Positions 1 through 31,006 of a stretch of DNA of 41,096 nt are shown one piece after another; the first letter of the stretch is position 1; each line of letters starts with the position of its first letter. The DNA comes from Spirochaetota bacterium (GTDB taxonomy: Bacteria; Spirochaetota; Brachyspiria; Brachyspirales; JACRPF01). The notes under the pieces were generated by a model. The model was not told the origin of the DNA, searched no databases, and saw nothing but the letters and a program-made list of their open reading frames with translations. Position numbers and translations under genes: made by a program. The stretch spans positions 1 through 41,096 of the forward strand of contig JBBTBY010000020.1 of the NCBI GenBank assembly GCA_038043445.1, given 5' to 3'.

Positions 1-65
1 CTCCGCGAAACAAACACTCACCCCTCGGCTAATAAAGCGTTGTGCAGAAGAAAATGTATTTGCCT

Positions 66-153
66 CTCCCCTCTCTCACAGGGATCGGCGCAAATCGGCA
101 TCCGTGCCTCGCGCCGACCGCAACATCCTTGTTGTACGAGTGAGAGAGGGGAG
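66..153. repeat. Long inverted repeat with nested stem
   Basis: Perfect 14-bp arms, CTCCCCTCTCTCAC at 66-79 and its complement at 140-153, enclose 60 bases. Inside lies a second 7-bp pair (TCGGCGC at 85-91, GCGCCGA at 111-117) and a small CAAC/GTTG stem at 121-134. There is no T-run, so it is not a classical terminator. It could be a non-autonomous element end, a structured RNA or a cruciform. I see no coding potential across it. Confidence 0.6.
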
Positions 154-187
154 AACATATCGGTATGCAAAAATACTTTCAGGCTGA

Positions 188-370
188 TTATTGATTTATT
201 CCGTGTTTAATATTATGTGCAGCAAGCTCATGCGGAAGAATTTCTACTGGCATAGACCGGCGCTCAATGACCTGTCACGCATGGCTTGGGATTGTATCCT
301 TGCTTTCATGTGCAATACGCTGCAGCAAGATGGACGCCCCGGAGCAGTACTGTCGATAGAAAGTGCATGA
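188..370 (+). pseudogene. Fragment of Y2 (IS91-like) transposase, truncated
   Basis: The plus-strand frame opens after TGA at 185-187 and reads YSVFNIMCSKLMRKNFYWHR, then PALNDLSRMAWDCILAF and PGAVLSIES. This resembles the conserved part of IS91-like Y2 transposases, where a 'VFTIPKxLRxxFxxDRxLLxxLxRxAW' stretch is followed by 'PGAVxxIQTFGDF' and then the metal-binding HPHLH motif. The reading stops being transposase-like at about 363, just before the 182-bp repeat starts at 364, and a stop follows at 368-370. The HUH motif and catalytic tyrosines are absent, so it cannot be active. The family call comes from recalled motif similarity only; a profile search would settle it. Confidence 0.5.
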
Positions 371-545
371 GAGTATCGTACGGAAGAGGTGTATGCGCCG
401 AAAATAAAATAACGCGGGAAATGCCCGTTGGGTTCCCAAACAGCACGCAAAAGCGGGGCGGGTGAGATAGAATGACACGATGCAGGAACGCAGCGGATGG
501 GGATGCGGTCCGATTTGACAGGAATTCGGCGGGTAATATACTGGC
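364..545. repeat. 182-bp direct repeat, copy 1
   Basis: It matches 5116-5297 over its full length without gaps; I count four mismatches. It begins TGCATGAGAG and ends in a promoter (TTGACA, 16 bases, TATACT). Inside are small potential stems, for example TTGGG-TT-CCCAA. Antisense open frames exist in both copies, but they carry no recognisable domain and seem to be a by-product of the sequence identity. The left edge coincides with the end of the transposase fragment. Confidence 0.85.
515..542 (+). promoter_or_regulatory. Sigma70-type promoter in repeat copy 1
   Basis: TTGACA at 515-520 and TATACT at 537-542 are separated by 16 bases. It would drive the orphan C-terminal frame at 566 and the membrane protein at 744. 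Copies 2 and 3 have the same -35, the same spacing and the same -10. Confidence 0.6.
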
Positions 546-565
546 GTTTATGGTAGGAATCTGTG

Positions 566-727
566 GTGAAAAATGCAAAGTACTATCCTTCTTTCGTTAC
601 AGCACATCCTGATTTTGGTCCAATTTGGCGAGAACATATTTCAGACGCTTTTAGCGGATTGACTACTCCTAGTTCTACTTTTTTCGAAGGTTCACTTTTA
701 AATTATACATGGCCGGATAGTAAATGA
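566..727 (+). pseudogene. Orphan 53-aa C-terminal fragment
   Basis: A GTG-started frame encodes a polar peptide containing HPDFGPIWREHISDAF and ending NYTWPDSK. It has no signal or membrane segment and looks like the C-terminal tip of a larger protein. The bases upstream belong to the promoter repeat, with an in-frame TAG at about 554-556, so any N-terminal body is missing. The stop lies 16 bases before the next start. A short orphan C-terminus directly followed by a small gene is the layout of displaced toxin-tip/immunity pairs in polymorphic toxin loci. I do not recognise a toxin fold, so that reading is inference. Confidence 0.35.
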
Positions 728-743
728 TTCATAAGGTGGTAAA

Positions 744-1004
744 ATGGTCGTATTTGCTTTAATATTATCTATAATTCTTGGGTTAATTTTGTTTTTTGCA
801 ATGGTGGTGTTCGCCCCCTCCGCACGACAAAACATTAGCGATCGCCTTATTATTACATTTTTTATATCAGTTGGCATTATCGGGTATTACCTCGCGGCAA
901 GCTTGGGTAGTGCTATAAGAGCTATCGTTATTTTTATTATTGTGCTACTCCCTTTTCTATTGTTATATATATTTCTAATAATTAAAAAGTATAAGAAAAA
1001 ATAA
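744..1004 (+). CDS. Small three-helix membrane protein
   Basis: 86 aa, with a good ribosome site (AAGGTGG, 4 bases before ATG). It has three hydrophobic segments at about residues 2-24, 34-50 and 57-79, and ends in the basic tail KKYKKK, which would stay in the cytoplasm. It is strongly AT-rich compared with the core genes beyond 6 kb. It follows the orphan C-terminal frame by 16 bases and the repeat-borne promoter by about 200. Function is unknown. An immunity protein for a lost toxin is possible from position and size, but no family is recognised. Confidence 0.6.
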   Translation: MVVFALILSIILGLILFFAMVVFAPSARQNISDRLIITFFISVGIIGYYLAASLGSAIRAIVIFIIVLLPFLLLYIFLIIKKYKKK

Positions 1005-1081
1005 GCTGAAATGTGAATCTATATAAATATATTAGTCGAAGTAAACCACAGTTTTATTTACATCACTTTAACTCGACACAT

Positions 1082-1438
1082 ATGCTAATGCCATCTCGAT
1101 TCTATTGGTAACAGAATGAGATATTTTCTGCTAAATGGAATAGATATCCCGCTTGAGCCTTTACAGGCAAACACTCTGACAGTTAAATCGTCGGCGTTTT
1201 AATAACGAGGAAGTATGGAATTAACGATTGGCCGGTATTCGCCTCGCTCAGCAATGACATGAAAAACGAGTATTTTGCGGTGTATTTCACGAATAAAATT
1301 GTCTTCTCGAAGATTCAAGTGAAGCCTGAGCTTGATACTGTTGATGCTGATCTTGTGCGGCGAATAACGAATGACGGGATTCTTGACGGGTATGATGCGG
1401 TACGGTTGCGGAACAACGGGGCGGTGGAAATATTATGA
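1082..1438 (+). pseudogene. Decayed N-terminal copy of the ~550-aa tandem family
   Basis: The clear part is 1214-1438, which reads YGINDWPVFASLSND, then NEYFAVYFTN, LVRRITNDGILDGYDAVRL and a stop. It aligns with both downstream paralogues (for example KRITNNGILDGYDVMRL). Upstream homology is weaker and split between frames: about 1082 (MLMPSRF, like the LLPIDSRL start) and about 1128 (ending LTVKSSAF), with stops between. The match ends where the paralogues continue as xTLQTWYLSND. It is therefore a frameshifted and truncated relict lacking the whole barrel-like part. It shows that the tandem array once had at least three members. Confidence 0.7.
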
Positions 1439-1480
1439 TGGATGTGTTATGATTGTATATCATACATTCTGTGGTGAGTC

Positions 1481-3160
1481 ATGAAGAAGCATATCTTTGT
1501 CGGTTTATTGGTAATTGCTATATCGGGTGGATGTTTAACAGGGAAATCCTTGGTATTATTGCCGATTGATTCACGATTGACGGAAGAACGGTTTATGATC
1601 GGCAATGTATGGCAATTAGTTACAAATCGCCCAAGTATAATTGAGGTTGAAACAATATATGGGAAAATGGTCGGGGTACGAACAAATTCGGATAAAGTAT
1701 TAACGATTGAATCTGCAAGTGCGGCAATTAGCATTAATTACCACTACAATGAATGGACGATCCTAAAATATCTCAGTAATGATAATGCGAATGAATATTT
1801 CAGCGTGTATTTGACCAATATGCTTTTATGTTCAAACTATATAATTACTGGCAGCTTGGAAAAAAATGATAAGGAACTATTACATCGTATAACAAACGAC
1901 AGGGTTTTGGACGGATATGATTCGCTTCGATTAAGTGCTGCAAAAGGACGTGGAAGCGCTATTCAGATATGGTACATTAGTAATGACACTGCGTTTATTG
2001 GCGTATTTTCCAGCAACATGAATTTCTCAAATCAAGTAAGCAAAATATATATCCCAGTTTATTTTACGGATAAATATACAGCGCAAGAGTTTAATCTTGC
2101 TCTTGGGATCGGGTTAGGATACAGACATAAAACTGAATGGGGGGTGCTGGGCGGAAATGTGATACCGTTCATTTATAATTATCAGAACAACAAACAAATA
2201 CCATATTTAGTATTTGAAAGTGATTTTATGTGGCATTCGATGGGGGAAGTATATCTTAGAGCCGGTGATTTCCTATTTTATGATAAAATCATGTACAGCA
2301 GAGCGCCAATTACATTGGGGACGTACCTTGATCCGGTAATTGATGGTTACAGACTAGTATCATATTCGAAATTGATTGAAAGCGCCAAATACACAAATGA
2401 TACGATATCAAATCAAACACGGCTTGGAATGCGTTTTGGATTTGTTCGTTTATTCTATACACTGGATCAGATATGGGATTCAAGCAGTTCCGTTGTATAT
2501 AACTATAGTACAAATGGAACCGTGACAAACACTAATTTTTTCAATTACCCATGGTCTTTTGGACTTAGAAATACTATCGAGATAATATGTACCGATAAAA
2601 AGATGGCATATGGCAATAATAATACATATTTCTTAAGCGCGCGGTGGTCGTGGCCGAGCCTTAATGTGGAATCATCAAGATTTTCATATAAAGGATTTTT
2701 CAATTATAACATAGATGAGGTGTTTTCGTTAACTCTTTTTGGAGAATTCCAACACTATTTGAACCCCAATGAGTACTTTTTTAAATCATTGGATAACTCA
2801 TCCAGTTCATTTGGGTATCGTCCAGTTCAACTAATGCAAGGATATGACTATTTAGCATTTGCCGGAATAAACTATTGGGGATTCGGTATCATATCGCTCT
2901 ATCTGTTATCGACAAGGATGAATGAAGTCTATGCCGGGAAAGTTGTAGTATATCCGGAATATCGGATTGGGTTTTCCTTGAATGCATTGCAAATTAAATG
3001 CGCCGTGGAGTTTCGGCTGAACCGCGGGAATGAGCTTTTCGCATCTAAAGATTGCTGGTGGAACAATTTCATTTTTAAAATGGGATATTATTTGATGCTT
3101 GGAGATGAATCTGATTATGAACGGTATGATATAGTTCGTGTATTTATGGATACAATGTAA
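1481..3160 (+). CDS. Tandem paralogue A, predicted exported beta-rich envelope protein
   Basis: 559 aa starting MKKHIFVGLLVIAISGGCLTG, an export signal that may be a lipobox (ISGGC, Cys18). After a mixed N-terminal third with the family motif HRITNDRVLDGYDSLRL (about 130-147), the rest is a run of alternating aromatic/polar strands with many Tyr, Phe, Trp and Asn, as expected for an outer-membrane barrel. It ends in a YERYDIVRVF motif shared with paralogue B. The start has a GGTGAG site. I do not recognise a named family. It is AT-rich, unlike the core genes. Paralogue B follows 74 bases later in the same direction, and a decayed third copy lies just upstream. Surface antigen, porin or adhesin are possible roles; none is shown. 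Confidence 0.75.
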   Translation: MKKHIFVGLLVIAISGGCLTGKSLVLLPIDSRLTEERFMIGNVWQLVTNRPSIIEVETIYGKMVGVRTNSDKVLTIESASAAISINYHYNEWTILKYLSNDNANEYFSVYLTNMLLCSNYIITGSLEKNDKELLHRITNDRVLDGYDSLRLSAAKGRGSAIQIWYISNDTAFIGVFSSNMNFSNQVSKIYIPVYFTDKYTAQEFNLALGIGLGYRHKTEWGVLGGNVIPFIYNYQNNKQIPYLVFESDFMWHSMGEVYLRAGDFLFYDKIMYSRAPITLGTYLDPVIDGYRLVSYSKLIESAKYTNDTISNQTRLGMRFGFVRLFYTLDQIWDSSSSVVYNYSTNGTVTNTNFFNYPWSFGLRNTIEIICTDKKMAYGNNNTYFLSARWSWPSLNVESSRFSYKGFFNYNIDEVFSLTLFGEFQHYLNPNEYFFKSLDNSSSSFGYRPVQLMQGYDYLAFAGINYWGFGIISLYLLSTRMNEVYAGKVVVYPEYRIGFSLNALQIKCAVEFRLNRGNELFASKDCWWNNFIFKMGYYLMLGDESDYERYDIVRVFMDTM

Positions 3161-3234
3161 TGAAATGTATATTGAGTCTTACTTGTGGTGAATAGGAATT
3201 GACGATAATACAAGTTAGTCTTTGGAGATATTAT

Positions 3235-4848
3235 ATGCATAGAATAGTTACTCATGTAATCGTTATTATAATGTGTTTGGGTATATCCTTTGGGGATATA
3301 ATCATTCACCCAATAGACAACAGGCTAACGTCCGGGGTATTTCTTGGCAGCAGTAATAGATGGGATTTGATCCAAAAGACTTCGTGCTTATCCAATATAG
3401 AGTCTGCGGCAAATACAATTCAATGGGTATATGGTTTCAACGAATGGGCGGTATTTACTCTTCAGAGCAATGATGCGAAGAATGACTATTTTACTGTGCA
3501 TTTTGCCAACAATGTCGGTTTCAAAGATATACACATTGCATCAAACATAACAGAATATGACACCGATCTTGTGAAAAGAATTACGAATAACGGCATATTG
3601 GATGGGTATGATGTAATGCGGCTGCAGCAAGCAGTGTCTCGCGAGAGTACGCTGCAAACCTGGTATCTAAGTAATGATTCCGTCTATTTCGGAACATTCG
3701 CAGAAAATCCTGTGACAAATATACCTACAAATATTTCATATGGGTCGCTACAGATACCTTTGTTCTTGACTGCATTTGGGAATCCATACAATTATCAGTG
3801 GGGCATGGGCATTGGTGCTGGGTATCAGCATACGTTCGATTGGGCTGTTATTGGAGCGAATATCATCCCATTCACGGGAATAAGCCAATACATGAAAGTT
3901 GCATCGAATACCTATCTGTATAGCGACAGCGCATGGCAGATGTCAGGTGAGTTTTACATCAGGACCGGACTATTTCTGATACATGACAGGCTATCCTATT
4001 TTCATTCCGATGTCACTGAGAAGATGAATAGTGTCGTGACATCTGGCGGTATGAGGAATCTTGTCTTGTTGCGAATGACCAATGATGTAATATCCAATAG
4101 CGTTATCGCCGGGCTTCGCATCGGTCCCTTCCGATGCTTTTATACTTTTGAAAGCACTTGGACGACCGGAAAGGCCGTTGCATTTTCCTATGATACGAAT
4201 GGAAACCTGACTGGTTCGTCCCCATACACAAATCCATGGCAAATGACAACGCTCAATTCACTTCGTTTGGTTTTGACCGATAAAAAGATGTCATTCGGCA
4301 ATAATACCACATACTATTTGGATAGTACTTGGAAGCTCCCAGATTTTCAGTTCACTAACTCTCTATTTATTCATCGTATGTTTGGCAATCTTAATATAGA
4401 CGAGTTGTTCTCAATATATGTATACGGTTATATGGCTCACTCTCTTAAGTTGTTGTACATTAATAAAATAGCCGATAGTTCTTATTTCACCTATACCACA
4501 TCACAAAGGGCGGAGCTGGCTCTGCTTAGTAGTGATATGCATTTAGAAGGAGGGATCAATTATTGGAATCAATTGGGAACTATATCATTAAGCGCAGCCA
4601 TGACGAGAATGCATATTGGATTCAATGAAAATGCGATAAAAATGGGCGTCTCAGAGTATAGAGTAGGTCTGACTTTTCGCAGCGCTTGGAACATTTTTGC
4701 ATGCGGGGCAGAATATCGATTCAATTTTCAACCACAATATATAAAGGAAAATTGGTATGATGGAATATTACTAAAAGCAAAGATAACACTTCCGTTTACC
4801 GACAGCGATTTTGAAAAGTACGATATTGTTCGCGCATACATTGAATAA
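3235..4848 (+). CDS. Tandem paralogue B, predicted exported beta-rich envelope protein
   Basis: 537 aa from the ATG at 3235, chosen because GGAG lies 7 bases upstream and a typical signal (MHRIVTHVIVIIMCLGISFG) follows; the frame is open up to a TTG at 3199. It shares with paralogue A the start IIIHPIDNRL, the KRITNNGILDGYDVMRL block, the SND and DKKMSFGNN motifs, a long aromatic-rich beta region and the ending FEKYDIVRAY. No lipobox Cys is seen, so A may be lipid-anchored and B not. Strong divergence between A and B with conserved blocks suggests an old duplication with selection on exposed parts. Function is unknown; a barrel or surface protein is inferred. Confidence 0.75.
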   Translation: MHRIVTHVIVIIMCLGISFGDIIIHPIDNRLTSGVFLGSSNRWDLIQKTSCLSNIESAANTIQWVYGFNEWAVFTLQSNDAKNDYFTVHFANNVGFKDIHIASNITEYDTDLVKRITNNGILDGYDVMRLQQAVSRESTLQTWYLSNDSVYFGTFAENPVTNIPTNISYGSLQIPLFLTAFGNPYNYQWGMGIGAGYQHTFDWAVIGANIIPFTGISQYMKVASNTYLYSDSAWQMSGEFYIRTGLFLIHDRLSYFHSDVTEKMNSVVTSGGMRNLVLLRMTNDVISNSVIAGLRIGPFRCFYTFESTWTTGKAVAFSYDTNGNLTGSSPYTNPWQMTTLNSLRLVLTDKKMSFGNNTTYYLDSTWKLPDFQFTNSLFIHRMFGNLNIDELFSIYVYGYMAHSLKLLYINKIADSSYFTYTTSQRAELALLSSDMHLEGGINYWNQLGTISLSAAMTRMHIGFNENAIKMGVSEYRVGLTFRSAWNIFACGAEYRFNFQPQYIKENWYDGILLKAKITLPFTDSDFEKYDIVRAYIE

Positions 4849-4865
4849 ATGAATGCTTAGTCACC

Positions 4866-5087
4866 ATGAAAAACATCTATAGAACTGTAGCGATTGCTTT
4901 TTCACTTTTCGTTCTTTTCTTTTCTTTATTATTCCTCCAGTTTCCGCTATCTAATTCATTGCCTGGCAATTGCGACTCATTGCTTGTGATCGCTTTATCA
5001 AACAGCTATATCGTAAAGATCAGTAGTCTTATTTCTGCAGTTCCGATAACAACTGCTATGTATCCGGCAATGAATACCCATGCATAG
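4866..5087 (+). CDS. Possible small membrane protein
   Basis: A 73-aa frame starting MKNIYRTVAIAFSLFVLFF has one strong hydrophobic segment (residues 8-28) and a second weaker one (40-65). It has no convincing ribosome site. An opposite-strand frame over the same bases also encodes a hydrophobic stretch (YAWVFIAGYIAVVIG), so the hydrophobicity may come from base composition. It ends 28 bases before repeat copy 2 and may be a gene cut by that repeat on either strand. Confidence 0.25.
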   Translation: MKNIYRTVAIAFSLFVLFFSLLFLQFPLSNSLPGNCDSLLVIALSNSYIVKISSLISAVPITTAMYPAMNTHA

Positions 5088-5115
5088 ATGTCCGCTACGT
5101 GGACGAATTTGCCGA

Positions 5116-5297
5116 TGCATGAGAGTATCGTACGGAAGAGGTGTATGCGCCGAAAATAAAATAACGCGGGAAATGCCCGTTGGGTTCCCAAACAGCACGC
5201 AAAAGTGGGGCGGGTGAGATAGAATGACACGATGCAGGAACGCAGCGGATTGGGATGCGGTCCGATTTGACAGGAATTCGGCGGGTGGTATACTGGC
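5116..5297. repeat. 182-bp direct repeat, copy 2
   Basis: It has the same orientation and length as 364-545 and is about 98% identical. Identity starts at TGCATGAGAG and ends at TATACTGGC. Beyond it come a GGAGGAGG ribosome site and a gene starting ATGAAAACT. The RBS and start part is shared not with copy 1 but with the third, short copy near 37.7 kb. With copy 1 it brackets a 4.6-kb AT-rich segment. Confidence 0.85.
5267..5294 (+). promoter_or_regulatory. Sigma70-type promoter in repeat copy 2
   Basis: TTGACA at 5267-5272, 16 bases, TATACT at 5289-5294. It is followed by GGAGGAGGCGATG and, 10 bases on, the ATG of the exported protein at 5325. The -35 to -10 block differs from the copy at 37708 only next to the -35 and downstream of the -10. 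Confidence 0.65.
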
Positions 5298-5324
5298 TGG
5301 TATCGGAGGAGGCGATGTCGGCGA

Positions 5325-5936
5325 ATGAAAACTACTGTTCTTTTTATCACTTTTAGTATTTCAAATCTTTTTTCTTTTCCAGATGCAATAGTCAGCACAA
5401 ATGAATTAATCTCTCAAGATTATTCTATATTAGATCTACAAATGGCTGACATCGACTCGAACGGTACAATTGATATTATTGCTGTGGCACAAATAAAAAA
5501 TGAAATAAATGAGAAAAGATGCCTGCTTCTGTATACCGGTACAGATAATTACTATTTAAAAAAAGTTGAAAATTCCAACGCAATACATTTATCAGATGAA
5601 GATGGCATGCTCGGGGACCCATTTCGAGGAATAAAAATTACAAACGGTTCAATAGTATTATCTTTTTATGGAGGAAGTTATTGGCGATGGGCGCTGTCAT
5701 TTCAATTTAGATTTAAAGAAGACAATTGGTATCTGATAAGATACGATTTAAATAACCTTAGCAGTGTGAACTCTGAAGGTTTTGAAGAAAGTTATGATTT
5801 TTTATCAAAGAAAATGAAAAGAATTGATACGGATAAAAATAAAAAAAGAAAAGAGATTTGGAGATCATTAGAAAACAAGAAATTGGTTTCTATATCCGAT
5901 TTTGATATATATAATAAAGGGAAATACTTGAAATAA
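5325..5936 (+). CDS. AT-rich exported protein of unknown function
   Basis: 203 aa with an N-terminal hydrophobic signal (MKTTVLFITFSISNLFSFPD) and then an FG-GAP-like stretch (MADIDSNGTIDIIAVAQ, about 43-59). A middle block reads GDPFRGIKI, FYGGSYWRWALSFQFRF and NWYLI (about 98-147), an arrangement I associate with uncharacterised exported proteins of many bacteria. The tail is lysine-rich. The start follows GGAGGAGG by about 12 bases. It is expressed from the repeat-borne promoter, is AT-rich like the island, and converges on glmS. An orphan effector-immunity or surface role is conceivable, but nothing in the sequence proves one. Confidence 0.6.
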   Translation: MKTTVLFITFSISNLFSFPDAIVSTNELISQDYSILDLQMADIDSNGTIDIIAVAQIKNEINEKRCLLLYTGTDNYYLKKVENSNAIHLSDEDGMLGDPFRGIKITNGSIVLSFYGGSYWRWALSFQFRFKEDNWYLIRYDLNNLSSVNSEGFEESYDFLSKKMKRIDTDKNKKRKEIWRSLENKKLVSISDFDIYNKGKYLK

Positions 5937-5969
5937 GAATTATGACACGATGGATAAACCACACATGCG

Positions 5970-6003
5970 TGCGCCTTTGGCGCAGCCCGGCGGCGAAGCC
6001 GCT
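5970..6003. repeat. Paired hairpin element between convergent genes, copy 1
   Basis: Two adjacent stem-loops: TGCGCC-TTT-GGCGCA (5970-5984) and GCGGC-GAA-GCCGC (5990-6002). The reverse complement resembles the element at 10113-10145, with the same stem order, spacing and TAGCGGCTTCGCCGCC core. It lies between the 3' ends of the 5325 gene and glmS, where it could act as a two-way terminator or an mRNA-end protector. No U-run follows. Confidence 0.6.
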
Positions 6004-29004: not shown

Positions 29005-29077
29005 GGGGCTGTAGCTCATCTGGTAGAGCGCTTGAATGGCATTCAAGAGGCGACGGGTTCGATCCCCGTCAGCTCCA
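29005..29077 (+). tRNA. tRNA-Ala (GGC)
   Basis: A 73-base cloverleaf. The acceptor GGGGCTG (29005-29011) pairs with CAGCTCC (29070-29076) with one G-U. The anticodon stem CTTGA/TCAAG flanks loop ATGGCAT, anticodon GGC at 29038-29040. The T arm is CGGGTTCGATCCCCG. Discriminator is A; CCA is not encoded. The next gene's ATG is only 9 bases after the tRNA. Confidence 0.96.
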
Positions 29078-29086
29078 CAGAACTAT

Positions 29087-31006
29087 ATGGAACAGACCGC
29101 TCTTATTTCAGTATCGTCCCGCAGCATCGGCAGATTGCTCGAATCGATACTCACGCGTATGGGATATGCCGTACGCAACACCCGCCGTTACTACGATGTC
29201 ATAGCGGAAAGCAAAGCCCCGACGACGGGGCTCATCGTCATCTCCGATTCCGTGGGCAACCGCGACGGCTACGACCTTGCGCGGCGCATCAAGAACTTCG
29301 ACGCCAACAATACGAAACGCGTCATCGTCGTCAATATCAATAGGCGCAATGCGGACGCCCGGACGCTTGAGCGGCAGCTCATCTATCCTTTGACGGTGCC
29401 CTTCCGCGAGGAGGACATACGCAATATCATTCAGCGCACCGCTCGAAGACGCCGCAGTATCGCCGCTGCGAAGGATAAGCAGGTAGCCGTGTTCTCGCCG
29501 AAGAAGGAGAGCGCGTCCTCACTCGAGGCGATGCTCCGTGCGGAGCATTTCCGTGCGTATGCAGTGACAAGTCTTGCGACGTTCAGGGAGCGCGTGACCT
29601 CCCGGCGGCCCGACGCCGTCATCATCGATGCCGACAGCGTACGCCGCGAGGCATATGCGCTCGCACGCGAGCTTCGCACGCAGAAACAGTACACGCAGAT
29701 ACCGATCATGTTCGTGACCGGGCGCGACATCCTGCACGAGCATGTGCGCGGGTTCGACAACGGCATCACCGATTATCTGCGCAAGCCCGCGGACGGCAGA
29801 CGGCTCTTCGACCGGCTCACGGTGCTCTTCGATAATATCGCCTCGCCGGGGAAAGCGGTGACGCTTGCCGTCTCCATCGACCCGTCGGTCCGTCATACCA
29901 TCGCTTATACGCTCGCGAAGAACCGCTTCGCGTTCCGCACGGCGGGGAGCGTCGATGAAGCGATGCGTGCGCTCCGGAGCCAGCGCATCGATGCGGTGGT
30001 CGCCGACCTCGAATCCGACCGCATGAAGATACTCCCCCTTATCGGCGCGATACGGCGCAATCACAAGTACGACGATGTGTCCATCATGACCATCGTCGAG
30101 CGGGAGACCATCGGCCTCATCGACACGGAAAGCTCCGCGGGCATCACCGATTATCTCCTCATGCCCTTCGACGAGACGCCGTTCATACGGCGGCTCAGGA
30201 ACAATCTCATCATGAAGAACGTCATCGACAGCATCGAGTACCAGAACAAGCAGCTCATGCTCGTCAACAAGCGGCACAACGACCTCTTGACGTTCACCGG
30301 GTACGATATCAAAGGCCCCTTGTCGCTGATACGCAACTATACGAAATTCTGCCTGGAAAAACCCGAGCTCCCGCGCGAGGAGATAGTGCGCTCGGTGAAC
30401 GCTATCGACCGGCAGGCACGGCTCGCCACACGCATCATCGATACGACGATGCATTACAAGAGCATAGAGACGGGGCGCATATCTCTCGAGAAGACGGACG
30501 AGGACGTGGTCGAGCTCCTCAACCGCTGCATCGAGGACAACATGATATTCATGGAGAACCGCGGGCTGAAACTCCGCGTCGAAGTGCGCGATGTCATACC
30601 CCCGATGCGCATCGATAAGCTCAAGATATACGAGGTATTCAACAATCTCCTCCATAACAGCGTCAAGCACAGTGCGCAGGGCGGGAGCATCGTGGTCACC
30701 GTGGGGCTTCTCGATTATCAGGACGAGTTCTATTCTCTCTTCTCCGAACTCGGCGAGGCGGGCAAGCGCCTCAATAAATTCGTCGAGATACGCTTCATGG
30801 ACGAGGGGCGCTCGCTCAATGACCGCGTGCAGTCGCGCATATTCGATCTTATCATCAAGAACACGCAGGGGCAGAACGATGATAAGAACCTCAATATCGC
30901 CCTCTATATCGTGAAGGCCTTCGTCGGCGCGCACGGCGGCAAGGTGTGGGTGGAGAGCGAGACCGAGGGCGGCAACGCGTTCATCATACTGCTCCCGGTT
31001 TCATAG
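29087..31006 (+). CDS. Three-receiver protein with a degenerate histidine-kinase module
   Basis: 639 aa from ATG 29087, nine bases after tRNA-Ala; earlier codons lie inside the tRNA. Three receiver-like domains (about 1-118, 130-255, 260-380) precede a HisKA/HATPase-like region (about 395-639). The usual kinase His box SHELRTPL appears as GYDIKGPL, with Tyr406 in place of His. G1 is DEGRSLN (second Gly lost) and G2 is KNLNIALYIV (both Gly lost); the N box EVFNNLLHNSVKH is kept. Among the receivers only the second keeps Asp (VIIDAD), Thr and Lys (YLRKP); the others have Val or Met for Lys, and the N-terminal acidic pair is missing in all. It is probably a non-catalytic scaffold or sensor. No partner kinase is adjacent. 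Confidence 0.8.
   Translation: MEQTALISVSSRSIGRLLESILTRMGYAVRNTRRYYDVIAESKAPTTGLIVISDSVGNRDGYDLARRIKNFDANNTKRVIVVNINRRNADARTLERQLIYPLTVPFREEDIRNIIQRTARRRRSIAAAKDKQVAVFSPKKESASSLEAMLRAEHFRAYAVTSLATFRERVTSRRPDAVIIDADSVRREAYALARELRTQKQYTQIPIMFVTGRDILHEHVRGFDNGITDYLRKPADGRRLFDRLTVLFDNIASPGKAVTLAVSIDPSVRHTIAYTLAKNRFAFRTAGSVDEAMRALRSQRIDAVVADLESDRMKILPLIGAIRRNHKYDDVSIMTIVERETIGLIDTESSAGITDYLLMPFDETPFIRRLRNNLIMKNVIDSIEYQNKQLMLVNKRHNDLLTFTGYDIKGPLSLIRNYTKFCLEKPELPREEIVRSVNAIDRQARLATRIIDTTMHYKSIETGRISLEKTDEDVVELLNRCIEDNMIFMENRGLKLRVEVRDVIPPMRIDKLKIYEVFNNLLHNSVKHSAQGGSIVVTVGLLDYQDEFYSLFSELGEAGKRLNKFVEIRFMDEGRSLNDRVQSRIFDLIIKNTQGQNDDKNLNIALYIVKAFVGAHGGKVWVESETEGGNAFIILLPVS

Follow-up and report, generated by a model that had tools for sequence, protein, structure and literature searches.

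A receiver-bearing putative pseudo-histidine kinase with tyrosine at the phospho-histidine position in a member of the Brachyspirales, and its receiver-less relatives in Brachyspiraceae

The window analysed here is the whole 41,096-nt stretch (positions 1 to 41,096, forward strand) of contig JBBTBY010000020.1, from the assembly GCA_038043445.1 of a Spirochaetota bacterium in the order Brachyspirales (genome G000 in our comparisons). A gene for a histidine-kinase-like protein lies directly downstream of a tRNA gene, with the following features:

29005..29078, + strand: tRNA-Ala(GGC), its 3' end 8 nt upstream of the start codon
29087..31006, + strand: pseudo-histidine kinase gene, 639 aa (ORF, Pfam; AlphaFold mean pLDDT 81.8)
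29096..29449, + strand: receiver 1, a pseudo-receiver without Asp, Thr or Lys; 34% identity to the homologue in genome G024, the highest among the receivers
29477..29830, + strand: receiver 2, D181, T211 and K233 present, acidic pair absent (sequence)
29852..30199, + strand: receiver 3, D307 the sole key residue left (sequence)
30173..30274, + strand: signalling helix, continuous into DHp helix 1 (model helix 363-424)
30275..30472, + strand: DHp (HisKA-like) helical hairpin (Pfam, AlphaFold model)
30302..30304, + strand: Tyr406 codon TAC at the phospho-His position (sequence and alignment)
30638..30670, + strand: N box FNNLLHNSVKH, intact (N524; alignment)
30686..30796, + strand: lengthened segment between N box and G1, with the family motif LDYQDE (Y544; motif codons 30710-30727)
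30797..30817, + strand: G1 box MDEGRSL, half degraded (alignment)
30887..30904, + strand: G2 box NLNIAL, every glycine gone (alignment)

A longer frame from 29036 would start within the tRNA-Ala gene, so that the ATG at 29087 is the sensible start; the homologue in G024 starts at the equivalent place. No Shine-Dalgarno sequence was visible between the tRNA-Ala and this ATG (29005-29087), and the mRNA would be nearly leaderless once the tRNA 3' end is processed. Elsewhere in the window, positions 1-6000 have a GC content of 38-41%, vs. 51-60% over the remaining window, and contain two large ORFs (1481-3160 and 3199-4848) with no Pfam match; this low-GC stretch is possibly acquired DNA.

Pfam and the AlphaFold model place the domains in the order of three receivers, signalling helix, DHp, and CA. 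Specifically, Pfam detected the three receivers (94.9 bits summed) and HATPase_c (50.3 bits), while HisKA scored 22.5 bits, under the Pfam cut-off of 26.9; no PAS domain was found by Pfam, and receivers stand in its place. Sequence profiles and predicted models agree on the two-helix DHp followed by a Bergerat-fold CA that defines the histidine-kinase fold. The protein is predicted to be soluble, with no transmembrane segment in its hydropathy profile. Residues 378-396 of the signalling helix are 47% identical to the G024 homologue.

The residues needed for catalysis are largely missing. The initial annotation had placed Tyr406 in the H box GYDIKGPL, and its reading frame, start and residue numbers were confirmed along with this Tyr, which takes the place of the phospho-His that an active kinase carries. 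The N box is kept, as had been proposed, with N524 present. The proposal that both glycine boxes are degraded stands for G2, which reads NLNIAL vs. GTGLGL in most canonical relatives, and stands in part for G1, where DEGRS retains the Asp and first Gly of DxGxG. The intact N/G1/G2 set of an active histidine kinase is thus reduced to a kept N box, half of G1 and a lost G2. The claim that only the middle receiver keeps Asp, Thr and Lys was also borne out; this receiver reads VAVFSPK where canonical receivers read ILLVDDE and has lost the acidic pair, and receiver 3 keeps D307 and lacks Thr and Lys. A full receiver active site (Asp, Lys, Thr, and acidic pair), as expected of an LvrB-type protein, was found in none of the three receivers.

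Taken by itself, the substitution at the H site might be due to chance or error, considering that a published survey found His absent from 0.9% of HisKA domains (722/76,471; PMC12632262). A single C-to-T change turns CAC into TAC at codon 406, the assembly is a draft, and one genome of the genus was compared, all of which would suit one copy in decay, or a His codon altered by sequencing error. We nevertheless consider this reading extremely unlikely: the 639-codon frame is intact, the coding GC3 is 0.80, a full-length homologue exists, and the Tyr is conserved across the related family under purifying selection there, so that related genomes already contradict it. Conservation of the Tyr among relatives indicates more than chance.

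Relatives were sought in the order (31 genomes including the window genome; 29 in Brachyspiraceae), with one genome per species and search E-values given per genome. The first scan, with the window protein as the query against genome contigs, gave no match, and stand-alone copies of the kinase part were first seen with a two-row profile search. An alignment of the short forms, used as the query, matched contigs of B. pilosicoli, B. alvinipulli, B. hampsonii, and B. innocens. Genome G024, from a separate Brachyspiraceae genus, encodes a full-length co-linear homologue of 600 aa (per-genome E 7.6e-44; pairwise 1e-46) with Ser at the phospho-His site, in which Pfam detected neither HisKA nor HATPase_c. 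Besides G024, a receiver-less short form occurs in 26/28 Brachyspiraceae genomes (25 complete, and one, in G030, cut by a contig end); its length is 229-285 aa as read mechanically, with some starts uncertain. Overall, 27/29 Brachyspiraceae genomes carry the gene, and the two others are a fragmented assembly (G025) and a genome with the locus masked by N (G011). Pfam recognises nothing in the short forms, which model as a kinase core and match HK853 (E 2e-11). Across 393 genomes of the phylum we found no closer relative; matches outside the order were canonical kinases, the nearest of them receiver-kinases of ~370 aa.

It is necessary to ask whether the window gene and the short forms are one lineage. 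An HMM built from 13 short forms only ranked the window protein first (77 bits) and the G024 homologue second (52 bits); no canonical kinase scored above 32 bits. A faster search with the short-form profile omitted the window gene in G000 and ranked an unrelated kinase first; we take this omission as a pre-filter miss, given that the full-sensitivity HMM puts the window protein 45 bits above the best canonical kinase. In a tree with an assumed root position and long branches, the 14 sampled pseudokinases fell on one side of a branch (support 100/99), and they were grouped as one change in all 200 bootstraps.

The residue counts cover the 27 complete sequences (window, G024, and 25 short forms). 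The phospho-His site is Tyr in 26/27 and Ser in the G024 homologue, and the following residue is acidic in all 27, with Tyr then Asp/Glu in all 25 short forms. His was found in 0/27 and an intact G2 in 0/27. The second G2 glycine position is Asn throughout, and the third is Ala in the window protein, Tyr/Phe in 25/25 short forms, and Thr in G024; Leu606 and Tyr607 are invariant. The N-box Asn, present in the window protein, is Phe/Tyr/His in the other members, and the adenine-binding Asp of G1, kept in the window protein, is Phe in 25/25 short forms and Leu in G024. Because it keeps both residues, the window protein is the least changed member. The short-form ATP pocket is filled with bulky residues, yet structure prediction clearly gives a kinase core. 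Family members have 48-60 residues between the N box and G1, vs. 30-44 in canonical kin. The lengthened segment (a hairpin) holds an invariant Tyr (27/27), which belongs to a [D/N/E/H/Y]-Y motif with mostly acidic residues after it; one canonical kinase (L032) gave a single, chance-like match to this pattern.

The 40 closest pairs, all from Brachyspira, gave dN/dS values of 0.03-0.19, which indicates purifying selection on the Brachyspira gene and not decay. The initial annotation had reasoned that a conserved Tyr with degraded G boxes among orthologues would mark a selected pseudokinase, and that His with intact G boxes would point to a single decaying copy; the alignment showed the former, a conserved non-His residue at the site, with selection measured in Brachyspira. 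Judging by the sequences, the gene very probably encodes a selected, catalytically dead kinase. The initial annotation further held that the whole protein was kept as a non-catalytic module. The non-catalytic part is well supported by the absence of His and the broken G2 in all 27 sequences, together with the purifying selection in Brachyspira; the whole length was retained in the window and G024 proteins and lost in the short forms without receivers.

With N524, D572, and G574 retained, weak nucleotide binding by the window protein is possible. These residues, the 50-bit HATPase_c match, and the Asp/Thr/Lys of receiver 2 are what a residual enzyme would build on, one that still binds ATP and either transfers phosphate to Tyr406 or works on receiver 2. 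Such an enzyme seems very improbable considering that G2 reads NLNIAL, that receiver 2 is without its metal-binding acidic pair, and that the short forms keep the Tyr despite the loss of the N-box Asn and G1 Asp.

The closest analogue of this probably dead kinase is DivL of Caulobacter crescentus (PDB 4q20), likewise a HisKA-type pseudokinase in which Tyr replaces the phospho-His. DivL has Tyr550 at the site, shows neither kinase nor phosphatase activity, and has a weak affinity for TNP-ATP (57 uM; PMC4211667); its Y550H variant shows growth and shape defects, and DivK~P binding is not lost (PMC4211667). DivL is thus a precedent for a protein of this kind that functions with no catalysis of its own, and for the importance of the Tyr. 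The two differ in that DivL has PAS domains, DTGRG in G1, and GLGL in G2, whereas the window protein carries receivers, has lost G2, and lacks the N-terminal PAS of the DivL family proper, whose members also bind a phosphorylated DivK-type receiver and control CckA. The shared Tyr, compared by similarity only, is likely convergent. One alternative is that the window protein is a DivL-type phospho-sensor, whose Tyr-bearing DHp surface docks a phosphorylated response regulator and signals allosterically to another kinase without catalysis. DivL 4q20 was the best sequence match among solved structures (E 2e-11, Tyr aligned with Tyr), DivK~P binding by DivL provides the precedent, and the window protein retains Pro411 and, next to the H site, the acidic residue that follows it. 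The margin of the DivL match over other kinases is small, however (46 vs. 40 bits), the short forms replace the Pro with Tyr/Ser, and the linked gene encodes a membrane LuxR regulator, neither a receiver nor a kinase. We therefore see this alternative as rather unlikely, though clearly less so than residual catalysis.

By fold, the window model matched Leptospira LvrB (PDB 8vc9) best (E 9.7e-18), and LvrB has the same soluble receiver-helix-DHp-CA order; the LvrB-type signalling helix itself is present in the window model. LvrB is an active kinase controlled by its phosphorylated receiver (PMC13269768), whereas the window protein has two extra receivers and is without catalytic residues. This fold match and the same layout in the nearest canonical kin make an LvrB-type receiver-controlled kinase the likely starting point. 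Stepwise loss in this lineage would have a parallel in the degeneration of DivL in Rhodobacterales (PMC9430884). The chloroplast sensor kinase (CSK) has also lost the His, with Tyr/Gln at the site in green algae and Glu in that of higher plants, and its CA domain is changed (PMC5054060), but CSK bound TNP-ATP at about 1 uM and the G boxes of the window family are far more altered. Pseudo-receivers can dock partners or ligands (PMC12632262), and receivers 1 and 3 of the window protein resemble them in having lost key residues; the difference is that here a kinase core, itself probably dead, carries three receivers.

To the question of a scaffold or ligand sensor, raised in the initial annotation, gene order adds a candidate partner. 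Wherever the Brachyspiraceae locus could be read (26/26), the pseudokinase gene is followed at -8 to +12 nt by a LuxR gene, and the two overlap by 4 nt in 17/26. The LuxR gene product combines several transmembrane segments with a LuxR (GerE) helix-turn-helix at its C-terminus. A gene for this membrane-anchored regulator occurs in 29/31 genomes of the order. In the window genome the orthologue lies on a different contig from the pseudokinase (C58:3407-4297; per-genome E 4.8e-53), so that the partnership is hypothetical for the window organism. The genome G001, of the same family as the window genome, has the regulator with no detectable pseudokinase, and the regulator thus does not strictly need it. 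Related regulators of other spirochaete families had no adjoining kinase in the neighbourhoods read, and the pair is, as far as sampled, specific to Brachyspiraceae. Our literature search found no paper on this gene pair in Brachyspira.

We propose that, in an ancestor of the order, a soluble receiver-controlled histidine kinase would have lost catalysis and been retained as a dimeric, phosphorylation-independent adaptor, its ATP pocket being progressively replaced. The DHp-CA body would dimerise, bind the LuxR regulator directly or via a third protein, and set its DNA-binding or dimer state. The pseudo-receivers of the window and G024 proteins may serve as input or docking arms, a job that Brachyspira could have dropped or passed on with the receivers. 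We lean slightly towards the view that a histidine kinase was converted once to a dimeric adaptor devoid of catalysis, which in Brachyspiraceae is now tied to the LuxR regulator. That the pseudokinase acts through this regulator has about an even chance. A stronger version is more tentative, and we would not favour it at present: the dead core, without any ATP use, might be a dedicated, translationally coupled regulator of the membrane LuxR factor across Brachyspiraceae, replacing phosphorylation as the control step.

DivL is the main model among the few pseudo-histidine kinases that are understood. The present family would add a second lineage, which seems to have arisen once, whose ATP pockets range from half-degraded to fully replaced, and whose gene partner is fixed. 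A fold and a candidate partner can now be assigned to a Pfam-invisible protein in nearly all Brachyspira-family genomes searched, including pig and human species.

Three further observations were made around these loci. G002 encodes a stand-alone 115-aa degenerate receiver (L113 14180-14527), with Asn for the expected Asp, ~4.5 kb from the pseudokinase pair, which could be a relic or a partner receiver. In another spirochaete family (L143 2402-5168; L146, L147, L150), a related membrane LuxR gene comes directly after a pair that resembles, as judged by eye, an RloA-type ATPase and an RloB-type protein. In several Brachyspira genomes (L054, L055, L058, L103), a small FlgM-like anti-sigma gene, also recognised by eye, lies tail-to-tail with the LuxR gene.
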